From: Olleya namhaensis
Lineage (GTDB): Bacteria > Bacteroidota > Bacteroidia > Flavobacteriales > Flavobacteriaceae
DNA length: 64,000 nt
Assembly (NCBI RefSeq): GCF_900114005.1
Contig: NZ_FORM01000006.1
Span: 124,001 to 188,000 of the forward strand
Reading direction: 5' to 3'
Shown here: piece by piece, positions 1-6,943 of the stretch
Numbering within the stretch: the first letter of the stretch is position 1
How the letters are laid out: the number at the start of each line of letters is the position of its first letter
Position numbers and translations under genes: made by a program
The notes under the pieces: generated by a model
Told to the model about the DNA's origin: nothing
The model's database searches: none
What the model saw: only the letters and a program-made list of their open reading frames with translations

Positions 1-278
1 ATTAAATAATTTTGTTCTCTATTTTGTGCGTAATATTCTTGAAGCTCACAATAAAAACAAGTGATTAGCGTGTTATTATCTATTTTAATGAATAGCTCTT
101 TATTTACTTTAATATTTACCTTTTTTAAAACTTTCCTACTCACTATAAGGAGTGTATTAGTTTTATTTGTCTCTACATTTTTTAAGATAGATCTTAATAC
201 ACTATCCTTTATTGTTCTATCCCATTGTCGGTAGGCAAAATGTTCTGTTTTACAAAAACCTGCAATATTATTGCCCAT
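1..278 (-). CDS. Unknown small protein, 3' end cut off by the window edge
   Basis: An open frame runs from ATG at 278 to the left edge without a stop (at least 92 codons). It begins MGNNIAGFCKTEHFAYRQWD and later has the stretch LITCFYCE. I do not recognise the family. The start is well supported: a strong purine-rich AGGAGG lies about 7 bases upstream, and the ATG overlaps the last 11 bases of the kinase-viperin gene, so the two are almost certainly co-transcribed and probably translationally coupled. The residues that can be read are Lys/Asn-rich with three Cys, and show no signal peptide or membrane segment. By position it is a candidate partner of the viperin protein. This is inference from operon structure only. 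Confidence 0.7.
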   Translation of the reverse strand, partial: MGNNIAGFCKTEHFAYRQWDRTIKDSVLRSILKNVETNKTNTLLIVSRKVLKKVNIKVNKELFIKIDNNTLITCFYCELQEYYAQNREQNYL

Positions 279-1701
279 AAGTCAGCTCCTCCTTTCTTAA
301 ATCTTGGTTCTTATCATTACTCCAATCATAAACTCCCCCTCTATCTAAAAACTTTTCCAAATCATAATTCATAGTTTTTAAAGCTTCTTGGACACCTACT
401 TCTAAAATTGGTTTACTATAATTATGAGTCCCTTCTGCATTATCAAAAAAGCGGCCTGCAGGATCAACCATCACATAACTTCCTTTAATCTCATCATTAG
501 ATTCTGGTACAATAGTTTTTACATCTTCATGTGTAGTTAAAAAATAATTATACTCTGCTGTTGTTATTTTAAACTTATCAATTTTAATATCATTTTGACC
601 CTCAATAGGTAATACTTGTAATACTTTCCAACGTTGCGGATTAGCGTATTCTATAAATTCTGTTAAGTTGTCTTTATAGTTTACTTTATTAACCACAGTG
701 TTAATCTTTAAACCATAACCATACATTTTAATAGTATCCACTAAATCATAATAAAATGCTTTGCTTAATGGTGTTTTTCCTGTAATTGCGCGACCTATTT
801 TAATATTATTTTCATCTTCTAAACTATCTATACTTACAGCAATCCAATCTAAATAGGCTGTGTTAGCTTTTAAAAATGCGTCCGTTAATTTACTACCATT
901 GGTTACAATCATAGTAGTCATTCCCAATTGCTTTGCCTTTTTAATTAAACTTGGTAACCACTTACATAATAAAGGCTCTCCTCCTGCAAATGTTATTTTT
1001 TCAAAACCTGCTGCTGCAATATTTTCTACTACTTGTAAAGCTTCCGCTTCGGGCAAATGTCCTTTTGGCACAACATCCCTTACTACATCTTCAAAAGTTG
1101 CAAAACAAAATTCACAACGCATATTGCATGCTTTCCATAAATGAAAATTGATACTTGGAATTGCAACTACAGCATTACACTCTTGATAATGTTTAATTAT
1201 TTGTTGAGACACTTCTTTAGCTGTAAAACCATCTGTATTAATAACTAAATCATAGTTATTATCGTTTGTAAAATCAACATTGTAGCGCTCTAAAAAACGT
1301 GTTCTCATAGCGTCATTTCTTAACTTAATTGCTTGTGGACTTGTTACCTCATCTACTCTATTTCCCGAGCTTATTCTATCTGATGCATTTTGGTCTGATG
1401 CTTTTAATAGTACATTAAAAGCATTGCCTATAAAATGAAATCCAAGTCTATAATCAATAATTATATTGTCTTTACTATTGCATTCTGCTTTAAATTTATC
1501 GTCAATTATGTGGTCTAATTCTGGATGATTATTACAATGTTTTTGAAATTGATTAATAGTCATTCCATACGTTTCCATTGCAAATGTTCTAGTATAATTT
1601 CCAACAGATATAAATTCAAATTTTAATTGGTCTTCAATTAGTTTTCCTACTGTAGATTTTCCTGTTCCTGCAAATCCGCTTAATGTTATTTTGTTTTTCA
1701 T
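268..1701 (-). CDS. Cytidylate kinase-like / prokaryotic viperin (radical SAM) fusion protein
   Basis: Residues 1-175 are a P-loop nucleoside monophosphate kinase-like domain (Walker A GFAGTGKST at 9-17) whose layout resembles short archaeal-type CMP kinases. Residues 180-477 align along their whole length with viperin: the 4Fe-4S motif CNMRCEFC (Cys192, 196, 199), GGEP at 240-243, KINTVVNKVN at 332-341, RWKVLQVLPIEGQ at 357-369, VPESN at 398-402, and the C-terminal signature LDRGGVYDW. Viperins use S-adenosylmethionine to convert CTP, GTP or UTP to 3'-deoxy-3',4'-didehydro nucleotides, chain terminators that stop viral RNA synthesis; the prokaryotic members are antiphage proteins. The kinase half would plausibly feed the substrate nucleotide, as CMPK2 does beside vertebrate RSAD2. 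It is cytoplasmic. A second small gene overlaps its 3' end. Family certainty is high; the exact nucleotide used is unknown. Confidence 0.93.
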   Translation of the reverse strand: MKNKITLSGFAGTGKSTVGKLIEDQLKFEFISVGNYTRTFAMETYGMTINQFQKHCNNHPELDHIIDDKFKAECNSKDNIIIDYRLGFHFIGNAFNVLLKASDQNASDRISSGNRVDEVTSPQAIKLRNDAMRTRFLERYNVDFTNDNNYDLVINTDGFTAKEVSQQIIKHYQECNAVVAIPSINFHLWKACNMRCEFCFATFEDVVRDVVPKGHLPEAEALQVVENIAAAGFEKITFAGGEPLLCKWLPSLIKKAKQLGMTTMIVTNGSKLTDAFLKANTAYLDWIAVSIDSLEDENNIKIGRAITGKTPLSKAFYYDLVDTIKMYGYGLKINTVVNKVNYKDNLTEFIEYANPQRWKVLQVLPIEGQNDIKIDKFKITTAEYNYFLTTHEDVKTIVPESNDEIKGSYVMVDPAGRFFDNAEGTHNYSKPILEVGVQEALKTMNYDLEKFLDRGGVYDWSNDKNQDLRKEELTYGQ

Positions 1702-1727
1702 TGGTTTAAGTTTAATGGTTAGTTAAT

Positions 1728-1752
1728 CCTCGCCTTTCTAAAAAAGACGAGG
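1728..1752 (-). terminator. Hairpin between the 46-residue gene and the viperin gene
   Basis: CCTCG (1728-1732) pairs with CGAGG (1748-1752), and CTTT pairs with AAAG inside. It lies just after the stop of the small Asn-rich gene on the minus strand and 27 bases before the viperin start. No T-run follows the stem, so it may be an attenuator or RNA-processing hairpin in a shared transcript rather than a full terminator. Confidence 0.35.
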
Positions 1753-1764
1753 TATTATTAATAA

Positions 1765-1905
1765 TTACTTTTTAGAATTCTGATTTGGATTTAACTGCTT
1801 ACCTCTATTACCATGCACTTTACTATTTGCAGCATTAGTTCCAGAAGTTCCATTGTTTGAATTTGCTTGATTTGACTTGTGATTGTTTTGTTTTGAATTA
1901 CTCAT
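1765..1905 (-). CDS. Small Asn/Gly/Lys-rich hypothetical protein (46 aa)
   Basis: ATG at 1905, stop at 1765. The protein starts MSNSKQNNHKSNQANSNN, continues with GTSGTN and GNRGKQLNPNQ, and ends in KK. It is wholly hydrophilic and low-complexity, with no hydrophobic core, so it is likely disordered. Small proteins of this composition, with GTxGTN and GNRGKQxNPN patterns, occur widely in flavobacteria; their function is unknown to me. The gene reads in the same direction as the viperin fusion, 63 bases upstream of it, with a hairpin in between, and is divergent from the histidine kinase at 2118. The length suits a real small gene rather than chance because composition and motif order are retained. 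Confidence 0.6.
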   Translation of the reverse strand: MSNSKQNNHKSNQANSNNGTSGTNAANSKVHGNRGKQLNPNQNSKK

Positions 1906-2021
1906 TTTTTTAGGTTTTAATTAGATTTTTAAAAGTTCAGCACCATGCTAAACCCTTATTATTACTGTAAAGATGCAGATGATTACAATTAAATTTTCTA
2001 ATTTGTGATAGACAGACTATA

Positions 2022-2052
2022 TTTGGGATATCGCCCCGTTTTTTTGGGATAT
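2022..2052 (+). promoter_or_regulatory. Two direct repeats TTTGGGATAT with 21-bp period (possible LytTR site)
   Basis: TTTGGGATAT occurs at 2022-2031 and again at 2043-2052, 21 bp apart start to start (two helical turns). LytTR-type regulators characteristically bind pairs of short direct repeats with about this spacing. The pair lies 66-96 bp upstream of the sensor kinase/LytTR operon, in the gap shared with the divergent 46-residue gene. Autoregulation is inferred. Confidence 0.45.
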
Positions 2053-2117: not shown

Positions 2118-3137
2118 ATGGATTACTTTTTAGATTTTATCCAACAATACAGACCTATTGAAGTCCTGCTTTTTATATTTATCCTTTTACTTATTAGAAA
2201 CTGGTATAACCTGTATAGAAAGCGTGTCTTTAGAAAAAGGAATAAACAGTTGACAGCACAATTAGAAGCGCAACAACTGGGCGTCTCTAAATTTGACGAA
2301 CAACTTAGAAAAGCACAATCTTTAGAAAGAAAACTAACCAAAAAGAATAATGAAATCTTTCAGTTAGAACAGCAGATAGAAGATTACATGAAAAAATTCT
2401 ATTCGTCTTTAAGTCAAAAAGAAAAGGAAATAGCGCAACATAAAGAAGCTATAAATCATCAAAAAAGAGCGTATGACCAATTTGTAAACTATAAAAATGT
2501 AGAAGCTAACAACACTAGACTTGGTGCACATTTTATTAAAAATGTAATCAGTCAAATTTATGTTGACATGGAAGAAACTGATAATAGCTACAAATCGTTT
2601 TTAGGGATTAATTATAAAATGGGTGGTAATAAAAATAAAATCCCTCCAATAAAAGCCTTAAAAAACATCTTTAAATTATTAGACTATAACGTATCTGCTT
2701 TAAATAAAGAAAACACCTCTTTAGAAGAAGAATTAGAACATATTACTATGTTTTTAGACCTTATCAAGTATCTTAAACCTAATACAAACATCCAGTTTGA
2801 TAATAGTTTAAAACAAGATCAAAAAGAAAACATAAAAATAAAACCGACCTTATTTTTCCCGTTTGTTGAAAACGCATTAAAACACGGTAGCTTAAACGAA
2901 ACGGACTCTTTTATTAGTATTGTTTTAAAAGAAAACAAGAACAAACAACTCAGCTATTGTTTAGTAAATAGTGCAGAACAACGTTTAGACTTCGACACTC
3001 AGGTTGCTGAGTCCTCAAATTTTGGCTTAAACGCTTTACAGCAATTACTTACTGCCTATTACCCAAATAGTAAATTAGAACACAAATCATTACCAAACAA
3101 TCAATATTTGTCAGAACTAACCTTAAGCTTAAATTAA
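2118..3137 (+). CDS. LytS-like sensor histidine kinase
   Basis: 339 residues. One membrane helix near the N-terminus (about 14-28) is followed by a basic stretch and a long coiled coil (about 40-120). The phosphoacceptor box GAHFIKNVI holds His138, as in the HisKA_7TM/LytS class where HFxxN is typical. A degenerate HATPase follows with the N box PFVENALKHG (Asn252) and FGLNALQQLL near the end. There is no extracellular sensor domain, so the signal is probably sensed in the membrane or by the coiled coil. The stop abuts the start of the LytTR regulator gene with no gap, so the two form one operon and a signalling pair. The input is unknown. The pair sits between defence-like genes, but a link to them is not shown. 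Confidence 0.85.
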   Translation: MDYFLDFIQQYRPIEVLLFIFILLLIRNWYNLYRKRVFRKRNKQLTAQLEAQQLGVSKFDEQLRKAQSLERKLTKKNNEIFQLEQQIEDYMKKFYSSLSQKEKEIAQHKEAINHQKRAYDQFVNYKNVEANNTRLGAHFIKNVISQIYVDMEETDNSYKSFLGINYKMGGNKNKIPPIKALKNIFKLLDYNVSALNKENTSLEEELEHITMFLDLIKYLKPNTNIQFDNSLKQDQKENIKIKPTLFFPFVENALKHGSLNETDSFISIVLKENKNKQLSYCLVNSAEQRLDFDTQVAESSNFGLNALQQLLTAYYPNSKLEHKSLPNNQYLSELTLSLN

Positions 3138-3893
3138 ATGATACGTTATATACTAGTGGACGATCAACCTAAAACTTTAAAATACGTTAAGGCTAAAATA
3201 GATACTCTACCCAAAGACTATGAACTAAAACATGTAGAAAGTTATGACAGTTCTAAAAAAGCGTATGAAAATATAAATAAAGATGACTTTGATTTACTTA
3301 TAGTCGATTTTGACATGCCTGTTTATAATGGTATTGAGTTAGCGCAAAAAATTGGTGATAATAAAAAAATCATTTTTTTAACAGGAGAAACTGAAAAAGA
3401 AAAACAAGTCATTAATAGTTTGGATATTTCAGGATACTTAAGTAAACCTTTTGATATTGAAGAATTTGAAACTATTTTAAAAAATAAGATAATTGGCAAA
3501 ATAAACAAAAATAATACCTTTAAAAAAGGAGAACGATTATCTATTGCAATTGGTGTTAATCAAGACATAGGTTTTTGCCCTGACGAAACTTGTTACATTT
3601 CAACATCACGAAACATAAAAAAATATCAATCCAACAAAAACTGTGTTCATTTTTTTGGTGAGCACGACGACGTTACTGTTACTAATGTTCGAATTAGTAT
3701 TAACGAGCTTTCTAAAAAGCTAGAACCTTACGGTTTTGAAAAAATAAACCAAAGTACTATTGTTAATCTATCTAAAATTGATAAAAGAAATAACAAAGAA
3801 CTTACTTTACTGGGAAGCGAAGAGGAATTTACTATTGGAGATAATGAAAAAAAAGGAATAGTCTCTAGAATAAGAACGCTGTTTGGTGTTTAG
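3138..3893 (+). CDS. LytTR-family response regulator
   Basis: 251 residues. The receiver domain spans about 1-120 with acidic pocket VDDQ (Asp8, Asp9), phosphoacceptor Asp57 in IVDFDMP, Thr82 and Lys103 (LSKPF). Residues about 140-250 form a LytTR DNA-binding domain, ending INQSTIVNLSKID, then a strand and a C-terminal helix. It is expected to be phosphorylated by the adjacent LytS-like kinase and to bind direct-repeat sites; such a repeat pair lies upstream of the operon at 2022-2052. Start codon ATG immediately follows the kinase TAA. Target genes are unknown; the divergent small gene and viperin operon share the same upstream region and are worth considering. Confidence 0.88.
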   Translation: MIRYILVDDQPKTLKYVKAKIDTLPKDYELKHVESYDSSKKAYENINKDDFDLLIVDFDMPVYNGIELAQKIGDNKKIIFLTGETEKEKQVINSLDISGYLSKPFDIEEFETILKNKIIGKINKNNTFKKGERLSIAIGVNQDIGFCPDETCYISTSRNIKKYQSNKNCVHFFGEHDDVTVTNVRISINELSKKLEPYGFEKINQSTIVNLSKIDKRNNKELTLLGSEEEFTIGDNEKKGIVSRIRTLFGV

Positions 3894-3914: not shown

Positions 3915-4028
3915 TTACTTCCGTTTCAACGCATCTAACGTTTTACCGTTTTTATCTTTCCAAGACGTCCAACCATTTGCTGCTCTTGCTAATATTATTG
4001 CTGCTGCTCCACTTGGTGAATTACATTT
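3915..4028 (-). pseudogene. C-terminal remnant of a DUF4357-type gene (copy A)
   Basis: Reading the minus strand gives SPSGAAAIILARAANGW, then TSWKDKNGKTLDALKRK and a stop at 3915. This is the characteristic end of DUF4357 proteins (SPSxAA, ANGWxxWK, GKTLDxL). In-frame stops occur immediately upstream and the similarity ends at the repeat boundary near 4040, so only the last 35 or so codons survive. A second, mutated copy of the same end lies at 4555-4675. Confidence 0.65.
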
Positions 4029-4039
4029 TTATTTGTTAT

Positions 4040-4148
4040 GTCATTGCGAGGCACGAAGCAATCTGTTTGTTGTTTCGATTAGCATCATGAGACTGCTTCG
4101 TCCTAGTTTGCCACGTTGTTCCTCCTCGCAACAAGCCTCATAATGACG
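4040..4148. repeat. Palindromic GTCATTGCGAG repeat, left copy
   Basis: Starts GTCATTGCGAGGCACGAAGC, has an internal GAGACTGCTTCGTCC arm, and ends with an AATGACG half-copy right at the GIY-YIG stop codon. The GAAGCAATCT and inverted GACTGCTTCG arms can fold into a long hairpin. The matching repeat stands on the other side of the same small gene at 4446-4526. The family is a REP-like palindrome of the kind seen dispersed in many bacterial genomes. Confidence 0.7.
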
Positions 4149-4436
4149 TTACAACTCATCAAACAAATCCGTCCATTCTGGATTTACACTTTCTATTAAA
4201 GCTATTTTCTGAGCTCTGCTTCCTCCTTTTAACTGCTTTTCTCTTGCTATTGCATCTCCAATCATTTGATGTGCTTCGTGATATACCAGTTTATCTAAAT
4301 TGTATCTGGCTGTAAATGATTTTAAATCGTGTTTTTCTTTATGTTGCAGTATACGTTTTTTTAAATATGCAGTAACACCAACATATAAAGTGGTGTTGTT
4401 TTTATTAGTAAGCATGTAAATATAACCTGGTTTCAT
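4149..4436 (-). CDS. Small GIY-YIG nuclease (YhbQ/UPF0213-like)
   Basis: 95 residues, a single GIY-YIG domain. The signature reads GYIYMLTNKN at 4-13 and LYVGVTAYLKKR at 17-28 (with the catalytic Arg), followed by His31 and a Glu late in the domain (EKQLKGG). The length is that of stand-alone GIY-YIG proteins. Its catalytic class cuts one DNA strand per active site. The gene is bracketed within 20 bp by GTCATTGCGAG palindromes and sits between two decayed DUF4357 gene ends, a context suggesting a small mobile or repeat-associated unit. ATG at 4436; upstream is only the right-hand repeat, so its promoter probably lies in or beyond that repeat. Confidence 0.85.
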   Translation of the reverse strand: MKPGYIYMLTNKNNTTLYVGVTAYLKKRILQHKEKHDLKSFTARYNLDKLVYHEAHQMIGDAIAREKQLKGGSRAQKIALIESVNPEWTDLFDEL

Positions 4437-4445
4437 ATTGTATAA

Positions 4446-4526
4446 GTCATTGCGAGAACTTTAGTCGAAGCAATCTGTTGATTGTAACCGTTAGCATTAT
4501 GAGACTGCTTCGTACCTCGCAGTGAC
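4446..4526. repeat. Palindromic GTCATTGCGAG repeat, right copy
   Basis: GTCATTGCGAG at the left end and CTCGCAGTGAC at the right end are near-perfect inverted repeats. CGAAGCAATCT and GAGACTGCTTCG form the inner arms. It begins 10 bp beyond the GIY-YIG start codon and matches the left copy in sequence and order of arms. Confidence 0.75.
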
Positions 4527-4554
4527 AGTATTATTCGTGTTTTGTTATGACAAT

Positions 4555-4675
4555 TTACTTCCGTTTCAATGCATCTAACGTTATACCGTTTTTATCTTTC
4601 CAAGACGTCCAACCACTTGCATTAACCCTAAAACTACAGCTGCCAAATTATGGATACTAGTTGGTGAACCGTCTA
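4555..4675 (-). pseudogene. C-terminal remnant of a DUF4357-type gene (copy B), frameshifted
   Basis: The minus strand gives GWTSWKDKNGITLDALKRK and a stop at 4555. Upstream, GSPTS..NLAAVVLG is recognisable, but a frame change separates it from NASGW, so the gene is broken. The last 60 or so bases nearly match copy A at 3915-3976. Its position just beyond the GIY-YIG unit suggests tandem duplication, or recombination around the repeat, followed by decay. Confidence 0.6.
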
Positions 4676-4753
4676 TGAGAAATATTTATATGCTTTGAGG
4701 TTTAGACAATGTTTTAATAAAGTTTAAATTACTTCTTAAATAATATTTTTTTA

Positions 4754-6943
4754 TCAATCTAAAACCATCTCAAAAAACCCAATTACTTTAAAATCCTCAA
4801 TCCCATCCTCAGAAAGTACTATCTCTTCAAAAGATGTATCAATTGATTGCGGCTTTAAAACTATGGATTGATGACTCCATGAATCTTCATTGTAAGACTT
4901 GCTACTTGAATATTCTTTAACTGTATATCCTGAACCGAAATCATAATCTTGAATATCAGTTGATTGCGCTAATACTATTCTGCCATTTCTAGATCCACCT
5001 CTATATTTTTTAAATAAACAAATAGAACCATTAGGTATTATTTTATTCATTGATTCTCCTACTACTTTACAAGCAAAATAATCGTCAGAAAAACGGATAT
5101 ATTCCGGTAATTGTATCCATTCACTAGCATCTACATTTTGCAACTCACTAAACGCTCCCGCTGCAACTTGTATATTATAAAAAGGAACACTATTTTCGAA
5201 TTGAATATCTCTAATATCTAATTTTACTATTTCTTCTTCAACATTAGATTTATGAGGCATTATAAAAGAAGACAAATAATCTCTTAAATCTTTATCACAA
5301 GCATAAACATAAGTCCCTTTTATACCCCTTAGCATTATCGTTTTATAAATATTTAATATAAATACTTTTAACTCACTTGGATCTTTAATCGATTGCTTTC
5401 CGTTTGCATCAAAATAGTTTTCTTCTTTTATGACAATCTCTCCTTTCTCTTTCGAATAAGATATTTCATTACCAAAAATTACTCCTGTATAATTTAAATC
5501 GTATCCCTGTGTCGTGTGTATACAGCCAACCTCATCTATGGCATTTGGAGAATTAACCCAATCTATATTAGTTGAATTCCATCTTAACTTTGAATTTTCA
5601 ATTTCAATATCTAAAAGACTATCATCCTTATTTGAAATCCATTTCCAAGAATAACCAGCAATCATTCTAGACAAACCAACTTCTTCATTTCTCAATTTAA
5701 CCTCTTTAATGAAAGAGTCTATGTTATCAAATAAAACAAAATCGTAATTTTTATTATTATAAATATCTTGATTAATATCTAAGTTACATTTAAGCAAATC
5801 ATCAACATATTTAACATAGGAATTCCCTCCTTTTACTCTAAATTGAGATTCTAAATATTCGATTTTTGTATCTTTTCTATTTTTAAGATTATCAAAATCT
5901 TCTTTTAAAACATCCGAAGGTTTAATAGATTGGCCTTCATCATAAAACAATATTGCTTTTGAGCTTTGTAAAGCAACCCAAGCTAATTCATTCCCTACAA
6001 ACTTATCTAAATCGAGCTTAGCATTTATCTTATCGAATGCTCCAAAATATGCTCCTAAATTAACTCTACGCCTTAGTCTATGTGATTCATCAACAATAAC
6101 TACATCATAATGTGATTTAGCAAGCTGAGCTGGGCCAATTACCATACTCGATTTTAAACCTTTAACGTTTTTAAATACTTTCTGTAAAGTCTTTCTAAGA
6201 GATGACATTGGAACAACTAAAGCCATTTTAGGATTTGGAAATCTTTGTTTTAACTTATCTATTTTAAATTTTAATTCTATTTCATCATTTCCAAAATCTC
6301 TAAAATTAAAATCTGAATTATCCGAATTGAGTAACTTAAACAAGAAAATAGCTAAGATTGTTTTTCCTGTTCCTGCACCTCCTTCTATTATTGTATTATG
6401 AACAGTATTATCTAATAAATTATCAATAATTAAATAAAGGCCTTTTTTCTGTTCTTCTGTAAGACTCTTGTATGGTGAATATTTAAATAAATCTGAATTG
6501 TCAATATGACTTAAGGAGTGTCTGGCAATACCATCTTTTCTAAGACCATTCCAAACGTCTTTAAAGACATTCCAATACACTTCCTGTTTTTGATAATAAT
6601 TATGATTTGCTATACCAAGATTTCCATTTAACAATTTGTATTGTCCATCTCCAGAAATATACTTAATTAAAAGTGATTCAATATCTAATGTTACAGACTT
6701 ATTGAATGAAGAGCTGCTTATTATTCTAAACGTTTTTAGTTTGTTTTTTTTATTGTTCTTTAAATGAGTCTTTAACCTATTAATAGCATCTGTTGTTTCT
6801 CCAACATATGCTTCTTTTACATTGTCATCGTTAAGCAAGTAAACAATTGGCCAAAGATTATTAGCATAGTAGTTATCTAATGAATCTATGCTAGTTACAT
6901 CAAAATCATGGCTTTCAATTTTAAAAGCCTCATTTCCAATCAT
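4754..6943 (-). CDS. GIY-YIG nuclease / DUF2075 helicase / S24 protease fusion
   Basis: 729 residues in three parts. Residues 30-100 are a GIY-YIG-like domain (PIVYLL 32-37, AYVGET 45-50, Arg56, Glu89). Residues 160-560 form a DUF2075-type superfamily 1 ATPase/helicase: Walker A GGAGTGKT at 188-195, Walker B VIVDESH at 282-288, then SQFRVKGG, CIHTTQGYDLNYTGVIFG and a C-terminal helicase block. Residues 585-729 are an S24 (LexA/UmuD-type) domain with an Ala-Gly cleavage site in QVAAGAF (595-596), catalytic Ser631 in GESM and Lys676 in YTVKEY, so self-cleavage looks intact. The start ATG overlaps the stop of the upstream MazG-like gene as ATGA. I infer a nuclease-helicase whose activity is switched by DNA-damage-type autocleavage, probably in defence. 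This specific role is not established. Confidence 0.85.
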   Translation of the reverse strand: MIGNEAFKIESHDFDVTSIDSLDNYYANNLWPIVYLLNDDNVKEAYVGETTDAINRLKTHLKNNKKNKLKTFRIISSSSFNKSVTLDIESLLIKYISGDGQYKLLNGNLGIANHNYYQKQEVYWNVFKDVWNGLRKDGIARHSLSHIDNSDLFKYSPYKSLTEEQKKGLYLIIDNLLDNTVHNTIIEGGAGTGKTILAIFLFKLLNSDNSDFNFRDFGNDEIELKFKIDKLKQRFPNPKMALVVPMSSLRKTLQKVFKNVKGLKSSMVIGPAQLAKSHYDVVIVDESHRLRRRVNLGAYFGAFDKINAKLDLDKFVGNELAWVALQSSKAILFYDEGQSIKPSDVLKEDFDNLKNRKDTKIEYLESQFRVKGGNSYVKYVDDLLKCNLDINQDIYNNKNYDFVLFDNIDSFIKEVKLRNEEVGLSRMIAGYSWKWISNKDDSLLDIEIENSKLRWNSTNIDWVNSPNAIDEVGCIHTTQGYDLNYTGVIFGNEISYSKEKGEIVIKEENYFDANGKQSIKDPSELKVFILNIYKTIMLRGIKGTYVYACDKDLRDYLSSFIMPHKSNVEEEIVKLDIRDIQFENSVPFYNIQVAAGAFSELQNVDASEWIQLPEYIRFSDDYFACKVVGESMNKIIPNGSICLFKKYRGGSRNGRIVLAQSTDIQDYDFGSGYTVKEYSSSKSYNEDSWSHQSIVLKPQSIDTSFEEIVLSEDGIEDFKVIGFFEMVLD

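Follow-up and report, generated by a model that had tools for sequence, protein, structure and literature searches.

The locus described here is probably an inducible prokaryotic viperin operon which, as judged from its sequence, would make ddh-nucleotides under the control of a dedicated two-component circuit. It lies in the window, i.e. the whole stretch of 64,000 nucleotides of Olleya namhaensis DNA that was analysed. The enzyme, a kinase–viperin fusion, is already known; less familiar are the small operon with helper genes and the apparent dedicated on-switch. The strongest new evidence is a candidate operator that is private to viperin loci and lies beside a regulator of the right kind. 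The features are listed below in window coordinates, except where a contig is named.

Contig C14:123570-123980: NT5C nucleotidase gene, wholly outside the window, after the 97-aa gene
1..278, minus strand (whole gene contig C14:123985-124278): 97-aa protein with a weak RelE-like predicted fold
268..1701, minus strand: kinase–viperin fusion gene, 477 aa, single complete open frame
322..1158, minus strand: viperin radical-SAM domain, residues 182-460
1180..1701, minus strand: cytidylate-kinase-like P-loop domain, residues 1-174
1724..1757, minus strand: hairpin between micropeptide and fusion gene
1765..1905, minus strand: conserved 46-aa micropeptide frame between candidate operator and fusion gene
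2002..2051, minus strand: candidate operator of three TATC[CA]CAAA direct repeats in steps of 21 and 20 bp
2118..3137, plus strand: divergent histidine-kinase-like protein, 339 aa, with one N-terminal membrane segment by eye
3138..3893, plus strand: response regulator with receiver and LytTR DNA-binding domain, 251 aa

The fusion enzyme

The first-pass annotation had read a kinase-like domain and a full viperin domain in a single frame. This was confirmed: the frame encodes 477 aa, and both domains score above curated cut-offs. All motifs quoted for the fusion were found, namely GFAGTGKST (residues 9-17, with K15 as the Walker lysine), CNMRCEFC, which holds the CxxxCxxC radical-SAM triad Cys192/196/199, KINTVVNKVN, RWKVLQVLPIEGQ and LDRGGVYDW. 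In the profile search, NF038283 (viperin_w_prok) matched residues 182-455 with 324.8 bits (cut-off 180), and the nearest solved structures of the viperin half are the PDB viperins 7n7h and 5vsl (E about 1e-47). A MoaA-like identity of the C-terminal half had been put up against the viperin reading. The MoaA profile scored 84.8 bits, below its cut-off of 284.05, and with NF038283 above its own cut-off an assignment to MoaA or another radical-SAM family was ruled out.

The kinase half matched Pfam PF13189 (Cytidylate_kin2) with 50.2 bits, above the gathering score of 28, and the NCBIfam (d)CMP kinase equivalog TIGR02173 with 81 bits, below the cut-off of 102.1. The modelled domain aligned with P-loop kinases (best Z 17.4, 160 aligned, rmsd 3.1). 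Shikimate kinases were mostly on top of its structural neighbours, and the first cytidylate kinase appeared at rank 17 with Z 15.4. Thus, with the equivalog score under its cut-off and a shikimate-kinase-like model, the fold does not settle the kinase substrate. The model of the whole fusion had an overall mean pLDDT of 58.9 and a pTM of 0.40, with low confidence in the viperin half. Much of that half fell below pLDDT 50, and the interdomain geometry, which bears on a possible channelling of substrate between the two activities, was discarded as unusable. Of the checks proposed for both halves, profiles were positive for each, and structure prediction supported the P-loop kinase fold but gave a low-confidence viperin half.

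Two further points of the annotation had to be corrected. The transfer of NMP to NTP by the fused kinase goes too far; NMP kinases yield NDP, so another kinase must finish the NTP. The parallel to vertebrate CMPK2 holds in role, as viperin is found with a nucleotide kinase, but not in family: the CMPK2 domain is of the thymidylate-kinase type, and the fused kinase matches cytidylate-kinase models. Nor is the fusion a new or surprising arrangement: PADLOC-DB 2.0 (2023) already holds a dedicated model for it. This model, PDLC02905 'Viperin-kinase fusion', matched residues 1-473 with 1017.8 bits over 473 of its 474 positions. The fusion thus belongs to a class of enzymes that had been catalogued before.

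Relatives of the fusion and the viperin tree

Scanning GTDB genomes yielded 7 loci. In addition, genomes were sampled at three levels: 397 from the family and 395 from the phylum, searched with the fusion model at E<=1e-60, and 395 from the class, searched with NF038283 at E<=1e-25. Viperins were found in 8, 2 and 17 genomes, respectively, the own genome being counted each time. Nine distinct full-length fusions have the kinase first (the one in the window and those of loci L010-L013, L015, L016, L026 and L027), and L014 is a broken copy. The eight further full-length fusions are 71-86% identical to the window fusion. Since they are intact and have the same domain order, a sequencing or frame artefact was ruled out. 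The Walker lysine and the three cysteines of the triad are invariant in all nine. The fusion loci are related, and locus counts given here do not equal independent events. The fusion of L013 sits in a Saprospiraceae MAG, which suggests transfer or mis-binning.

A tree was built from 27 viperin domains. The kinase-first fusions, 10 rows including the broken copy, grouped together; their fork, at 89/83, is below the tool's star, and all of 200 bootstrap trees (100%) kept them apart from the other labelled rows. The opposite order, with viperin first, was found in L030 (4231-5664), L051 (5020-6405) and L055 (4222-5622). These three viperins are drawn at three other places of the tree, although a single change among them would satisfy the starred branches. 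This separate placing suggests that viperin and kinase fused on more than one occasion. In L052 and L054, the kinase is a separate protein encoded immediately behind viperin.

Plasmid- or phage-borne copies of the fusion were also looked for and rejected: 85 plasmid and 6 phage records match, none covering 80% of the query, and the matches of the 6 phage rows and of the 10 plasmid rows listed fall in the viperin part.

A two-component pair and a candidate operator

The divergent gene pair encodes a putative sensor and its regulator. The histidine-kinase-like protein matched PF06580 (His_kinase) at residues 178-218 with 18.3 bits (E 0.0029), which is under the gathering score of 25.2; His138 and an N-box-like ENxxKHG are invariant in the 11 proteins aligned. 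The regulator matched PF00072 (62.3 bits) and PF04397 (28.6 bits), each above its cut-off. PADLOC gave weak matches only for the two proteins (SIR2, 15.1 bits; PDC-M60C, 23.1 bits). The pair was found beside all ten kinase-first loci (nine intact and the broken L014) and also beside the viperins of L029, L031 and L032. Across the family and phylum samples, it is present in six of nine distinct viperin genomes (own, G294, G168, G109, G390 and G033). In the class sample, a match to the histidine kinase profile lies next to a receiver-like frame in 4 of 16 viperin loci (L051, L053, L055 and L065), among which the response regulator profile matched the L055 regulator only. The own genome has 11 LytTR matches. 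With this number, a pair beside 10 of 10 loci makes chance adjacency unlikely; common descent is the larger caveat.

In LytTR sites, direct repeats are spaced by about two helical turns. The triple repeat upstream of the operon is present in 9 of 11 aligned intergenic regions when one mismatch per copy is allowed; L014 and L029 have a pair only. Shuffling gave no triple in 500 shuffles for each intergenic locus, in a test that was not blind, as the motif was derived from the same 11-locus alignment. In the own genome of 3.52 Mb, the exact triple pattern occurs once. When up to 3 mismatches were allowed in a search of 13 genomes, about 49 Mb in total, 11 matches were returned, in nine of the genomes; the reversed pattern, used as a control, returned none. 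By contig coordinates, all 11 matches lie in the viperin locus. The 13 genomes had been picked for carrying viperin, so that this exclusivity is better evidence than the shuffles, yet is not blind either. The triple was not found in the four other genomes of the search, which are those of L014, L029, L031 and L032, nor near the viperins with a histidine-kinase-like neighbour in L051, L053, L055 and L065.

In two loci, a second triple operator lies behind the viperin operon (L012, 7148-7603; L015, 6790-7226). Behind each come two short peptide frames and, further on, what looks by eye like a terminator hairpin. The second of these peptide frames has a QLNPxxxEYxxSREE motif.

Genes downstream of the fusion

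The gene of the 97-aa protein starts inside the end of the fusion gene and reaches beyond the window with its last 5 residues and the stop. It lies directly behind the fusion in all nine full-length kinase-first loci. Distant relatives were found in 4 of 16 class-level viperin loci, several of which are incomplete or cut by contig ends (L051, L052, L055 and L060, upstream of viperin in the last). In the 397 family genomes its profile matched four, three of them with the fusion. The fourth, G353, was rejected as a family member, the match being weak and frame-broken and viperin being absent within the 10 kb taken. The structural model (pLDDT 75.0) was nearest to RNases of the RelE/HigB type, weakly (best VIA Z 4.8 for RelE 4fxh_B, rmsd 2.6, 59 aligned). 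Foldseek returned no match at E<=0.001, Pfam and NCBIfam gave nothing convincing, and PADLOC had no match at E<=5 for this protein or for NT5C.

The NT5C protein matched PF06941 with 57.8 bits (gathering score 24.8). Its DMDG motif is intact in the own genome, where the viperin-locus gene is the sole NT5C match (E<=0.001). NT5C follows the 97-aa gene in eight of nine kinase-first loci and is missing in L015; it is frame-broken in L013 and L016, and the motif Asp is changed in L010. Loss or damage in four of nine loci argues that NT5C is dispensable. In L031, a distant lone viperin, the viperin gene is followed by NT5C and then by a thymidylate-kinase-type gene. Predicted kinases and nucleotidases thus recur with viperin, the nucleotidase not being kept everywhere.

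This arrangement bears on what the fused kinase does. It might mainly recycle ddhNMP from degraded, ended RNA, with the nucleotidase opposing it and protecting the host; the two enzymes would then set the lifetime of the chain terminator and not the supply of NTP. In line with such a role, the operon encodes a kinase together with a 5'-nucleotidase that would work against it, and L031 has the row of three genes. However, the kinase is intact in all nine fusion loci, four of which have lost NT5C or carry a damaged copy, and we find a role mainly in recycling rather doubtful. We favour a kinase that supplies viperin with substrate.

A further protein of 119 aa (p119; L009, 10576-10935), without a Pfam family, is encoded downstream in five of nine kinase-first loci at varied distances and is a possible further operon member.

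A micropeptide and a hairpin in the leader

Between the candidate operator and the fusion gene, 8 of the 11 aligned loci encode a peptide of 45-46 aa with HGNRGKQLNPNQ close to its end. L027 has an unlike peptide at this position, and in L013 and L015 the intergenic alignment revealed no peptide frame between operator and fusion gene. In the seven copies of equal length, pairwise differences amount to 284 at third codon positions versus 75 and 72 elsewhere, and of the 352 codon pairs that differ, 199 are synonymous (the pairs are not independent). The micropeptide had one match in the own genome at E<=1 and nothing in Pfam at E<=0.1. It was found in 9 of the 397 family genomes, four with viperin (G000, G294, G109 and G033) and five without, at E<=1e-60 for the fusion model. 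It may act as a leader peptide, a regulator or an antitoxin.

Relatives of the micropeptide adjoin various genes. Those in L080 (7029-7163) and L081 (6667-6825) lie next to proteins of 213 and 221 aa which are alike by eye. The one in L082 (6800-6976) adjoins a MoxR-vWA pair, the one in L083 (4683-4823) an AAA-DUF7192 pair, and the one in L084 (about 6817-6942) a glycosyltransferase-like gene, as judged by eye.

A stem is predicted behind the peptide in all nine loci with a peptide; compared with 200 dinucleotide shuffles per locus, its z lies between -2.3 and -6.9, and its sequence diverges most in L027 and L029. The position of this hairpin between micropeptide and fusion gene would fit a fusion gene with a promoter of its own behind the hairpin, the pair and the operator serving the two-component genes or the micropeptide only. 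The second operators in L012 and L015, which precede only short peptide frames and a terminator-like hairpin, would fit as well. On the other hand, the operator stands before the fusion in L013 and L015 with no peptide frame found in between, and L015 has no stable hairpin (z 0.0), although the L013 leader is structured to some extent (z -3.3). We regard a separate promoter as unlikely and keep to a common transcript that includes the fusion gene.

Other viperin loci and the wider neighbourhood

In three loci, a divergent sigma-54 activator lies beside viperin (L052, 2822-4756; L059, 2900-4795; L066, 840-2657). The L052 activator, the only one of the three scanned, matched PADLOC RtcR CARF_AAA_HTH with 233 bits. 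These activators are possibly a second kind of dedicated viperin regulator, which possibly senses RNA ends. Three other loci have, upstream of viperin and on the same strand, a gene for a protein of 634-827 aa and no two-component pair (L028, 5832-7760; L030, 5735-8218; L033, 2693-4597). One of these large genes weakly matches PADLOC 'Viperin-associated NERD' (25.8 bits), and one has TPR repeats. In L053, a TauD-type dioxygenase gene lies close behind viperin (3968-4678). In the window itself, positions 4754-6943 encode a 729-aa protein, by eye a GIY-YIG/ATPase/S24-like fusion, near a MazG-like frame; the surroundings are perhaps a defence island.

Discussion

From what the sequence shows, namely gene content, domain matches and conserved sites, we propose the following course of events. 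The membrane-anchored, histidine-kinase-like protein would sense infection or the resulting damage and phosphorylate the LytTR regulator. The regulator would then bind the triple repeat of the divergent promoter region and so turn on the transcript, a step suggested by the conserved, locus-exclusive site. The induced transcript would comprise the micropeptide, the hairpin, the fusion and the RelE-like protein, to which several loci add an intact NT5C. From what is known of the family, the viperin half, with SAM and a 4Fe-4S cluster, would convert an NTP, most likely CTP, to the 3'-deoxy-3',4'-didehydro-NTP, and thereby end phage RNA chains. The fused NMP kinase would turn NMP, for instance from RNA breakdown or as ddhNMP from ended transcripts, into the diphosphate and so keep viperin supplied, with a cellular kinase making the triphosphate. 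A role of the kinase domain as nucleotide sensor or structural partner, which its score under the (d)CMP kinase equivalog cut-off might indicate, is very improbable, as the Walker lysine, R38 (SxGxxxR), the DYR motif and Arg 109, 115 and 128, which we take to be the residues expected for catalysis, are invariant in all eight fused and separate kinases aligned. As weaker parts of the proposal, the RelE-like protein may add RNA cleavage or translation arrest, and the nucleotidase may dephosphorylate ddhNMP or dNMP, sparing the host or starving the phage.

Constant production of chain-terminating nucleotides would be expected to burden the cell, and a viperin that has a sensor, a regulator and a sharp operator to itself would make the timing of this production testable. 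We suggest, tentatively, that some bacterial viperins may resemble an interferon-stimulated gene in their wiring, with a two-component system of their own that acts through a genome-unique operator of three repeats on viperin, the fused kinase, the RelE-like protein, the nucleotidase and the micropeptide. In the same tentative picture, the micropeptide would belong to an undescribed family (~45 aa, Asn/Lys/Gln-rich, with an HGNRGxQLNPN-like motif) that goes with a number of unrelated operons, defence-like in part, and might serve these as a shared regulator or immunity factor. If true, this would be a bacterial parallel to the infection-induced animal viperin, reached by different parts, and the micropeptide, should defence operons prove to share it, would offer a new way into the regulation of defence.

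As Bernheim et al. are said to have described in 2021, prokaryotic viperins are antiphage producers of ddh-nucleotides, some of them with kinases. The literature on prokaryotic viperins and kinases was covered with the available parts of PMC10865869, PMC10058120, PMC11249213 and PMC9252829, and also of PMC10732462 and PMC11291487. According to the available part of a 2024 essay, 15% of bacterial viperin genes adjoin a kinase gene similar to CMPK2 (PMC11249213). The words 'nucleotidase', 'two-component' and 'histidine kinase' are absent from the available main text of PMC10865869. A search on viperin, nucleotidase and phage found no paper, and viperin was absent among the matches listed for two-component and LytTR systems. 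Among those listed for two-component control of anti-phage defence, no such viperin circuit appeared by title. Within this partly available literature, which does not include Bernheim et al. 2021, the whole locus with circuit, operator, micropeptide and helper genes was not found.

The closest catalogued system is the PADLOC pVip-kinase (PDLC02905), which has the same domain order and is matched at 473 of 474 positions. In contrast to this model, which describes the enzyme only, the locus described here adds the 97-aa protein, NT5C, the histidine-kinase-like protein and the response regulator. Loci in which a pVip gene adjoins hicA or relE have been reported, as far as the source was available, and share with the window locus a small RNase-toxin-like gene beside viperin (PMC10865869). 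LytS/LytTR systems have in common with it the REC-LytTR regulator and the direct-repeat pattern; unlike them, it has a short histidine-kinase-like protein below the His_kinase cut-off, and three repeats that are private to a defence locus. In vertebrates, RSAD2 and CMPK2 are a gene pair of viperin and nucleotide kinase that is induced by infection via interferon signalling. The window locus shares the association of viperin with a nucleotide kinase, although the vertebrate kinase is of a different family, and induction, which runs through interferon signalling in vertebrates, would here run through an apparent two-component circuit.
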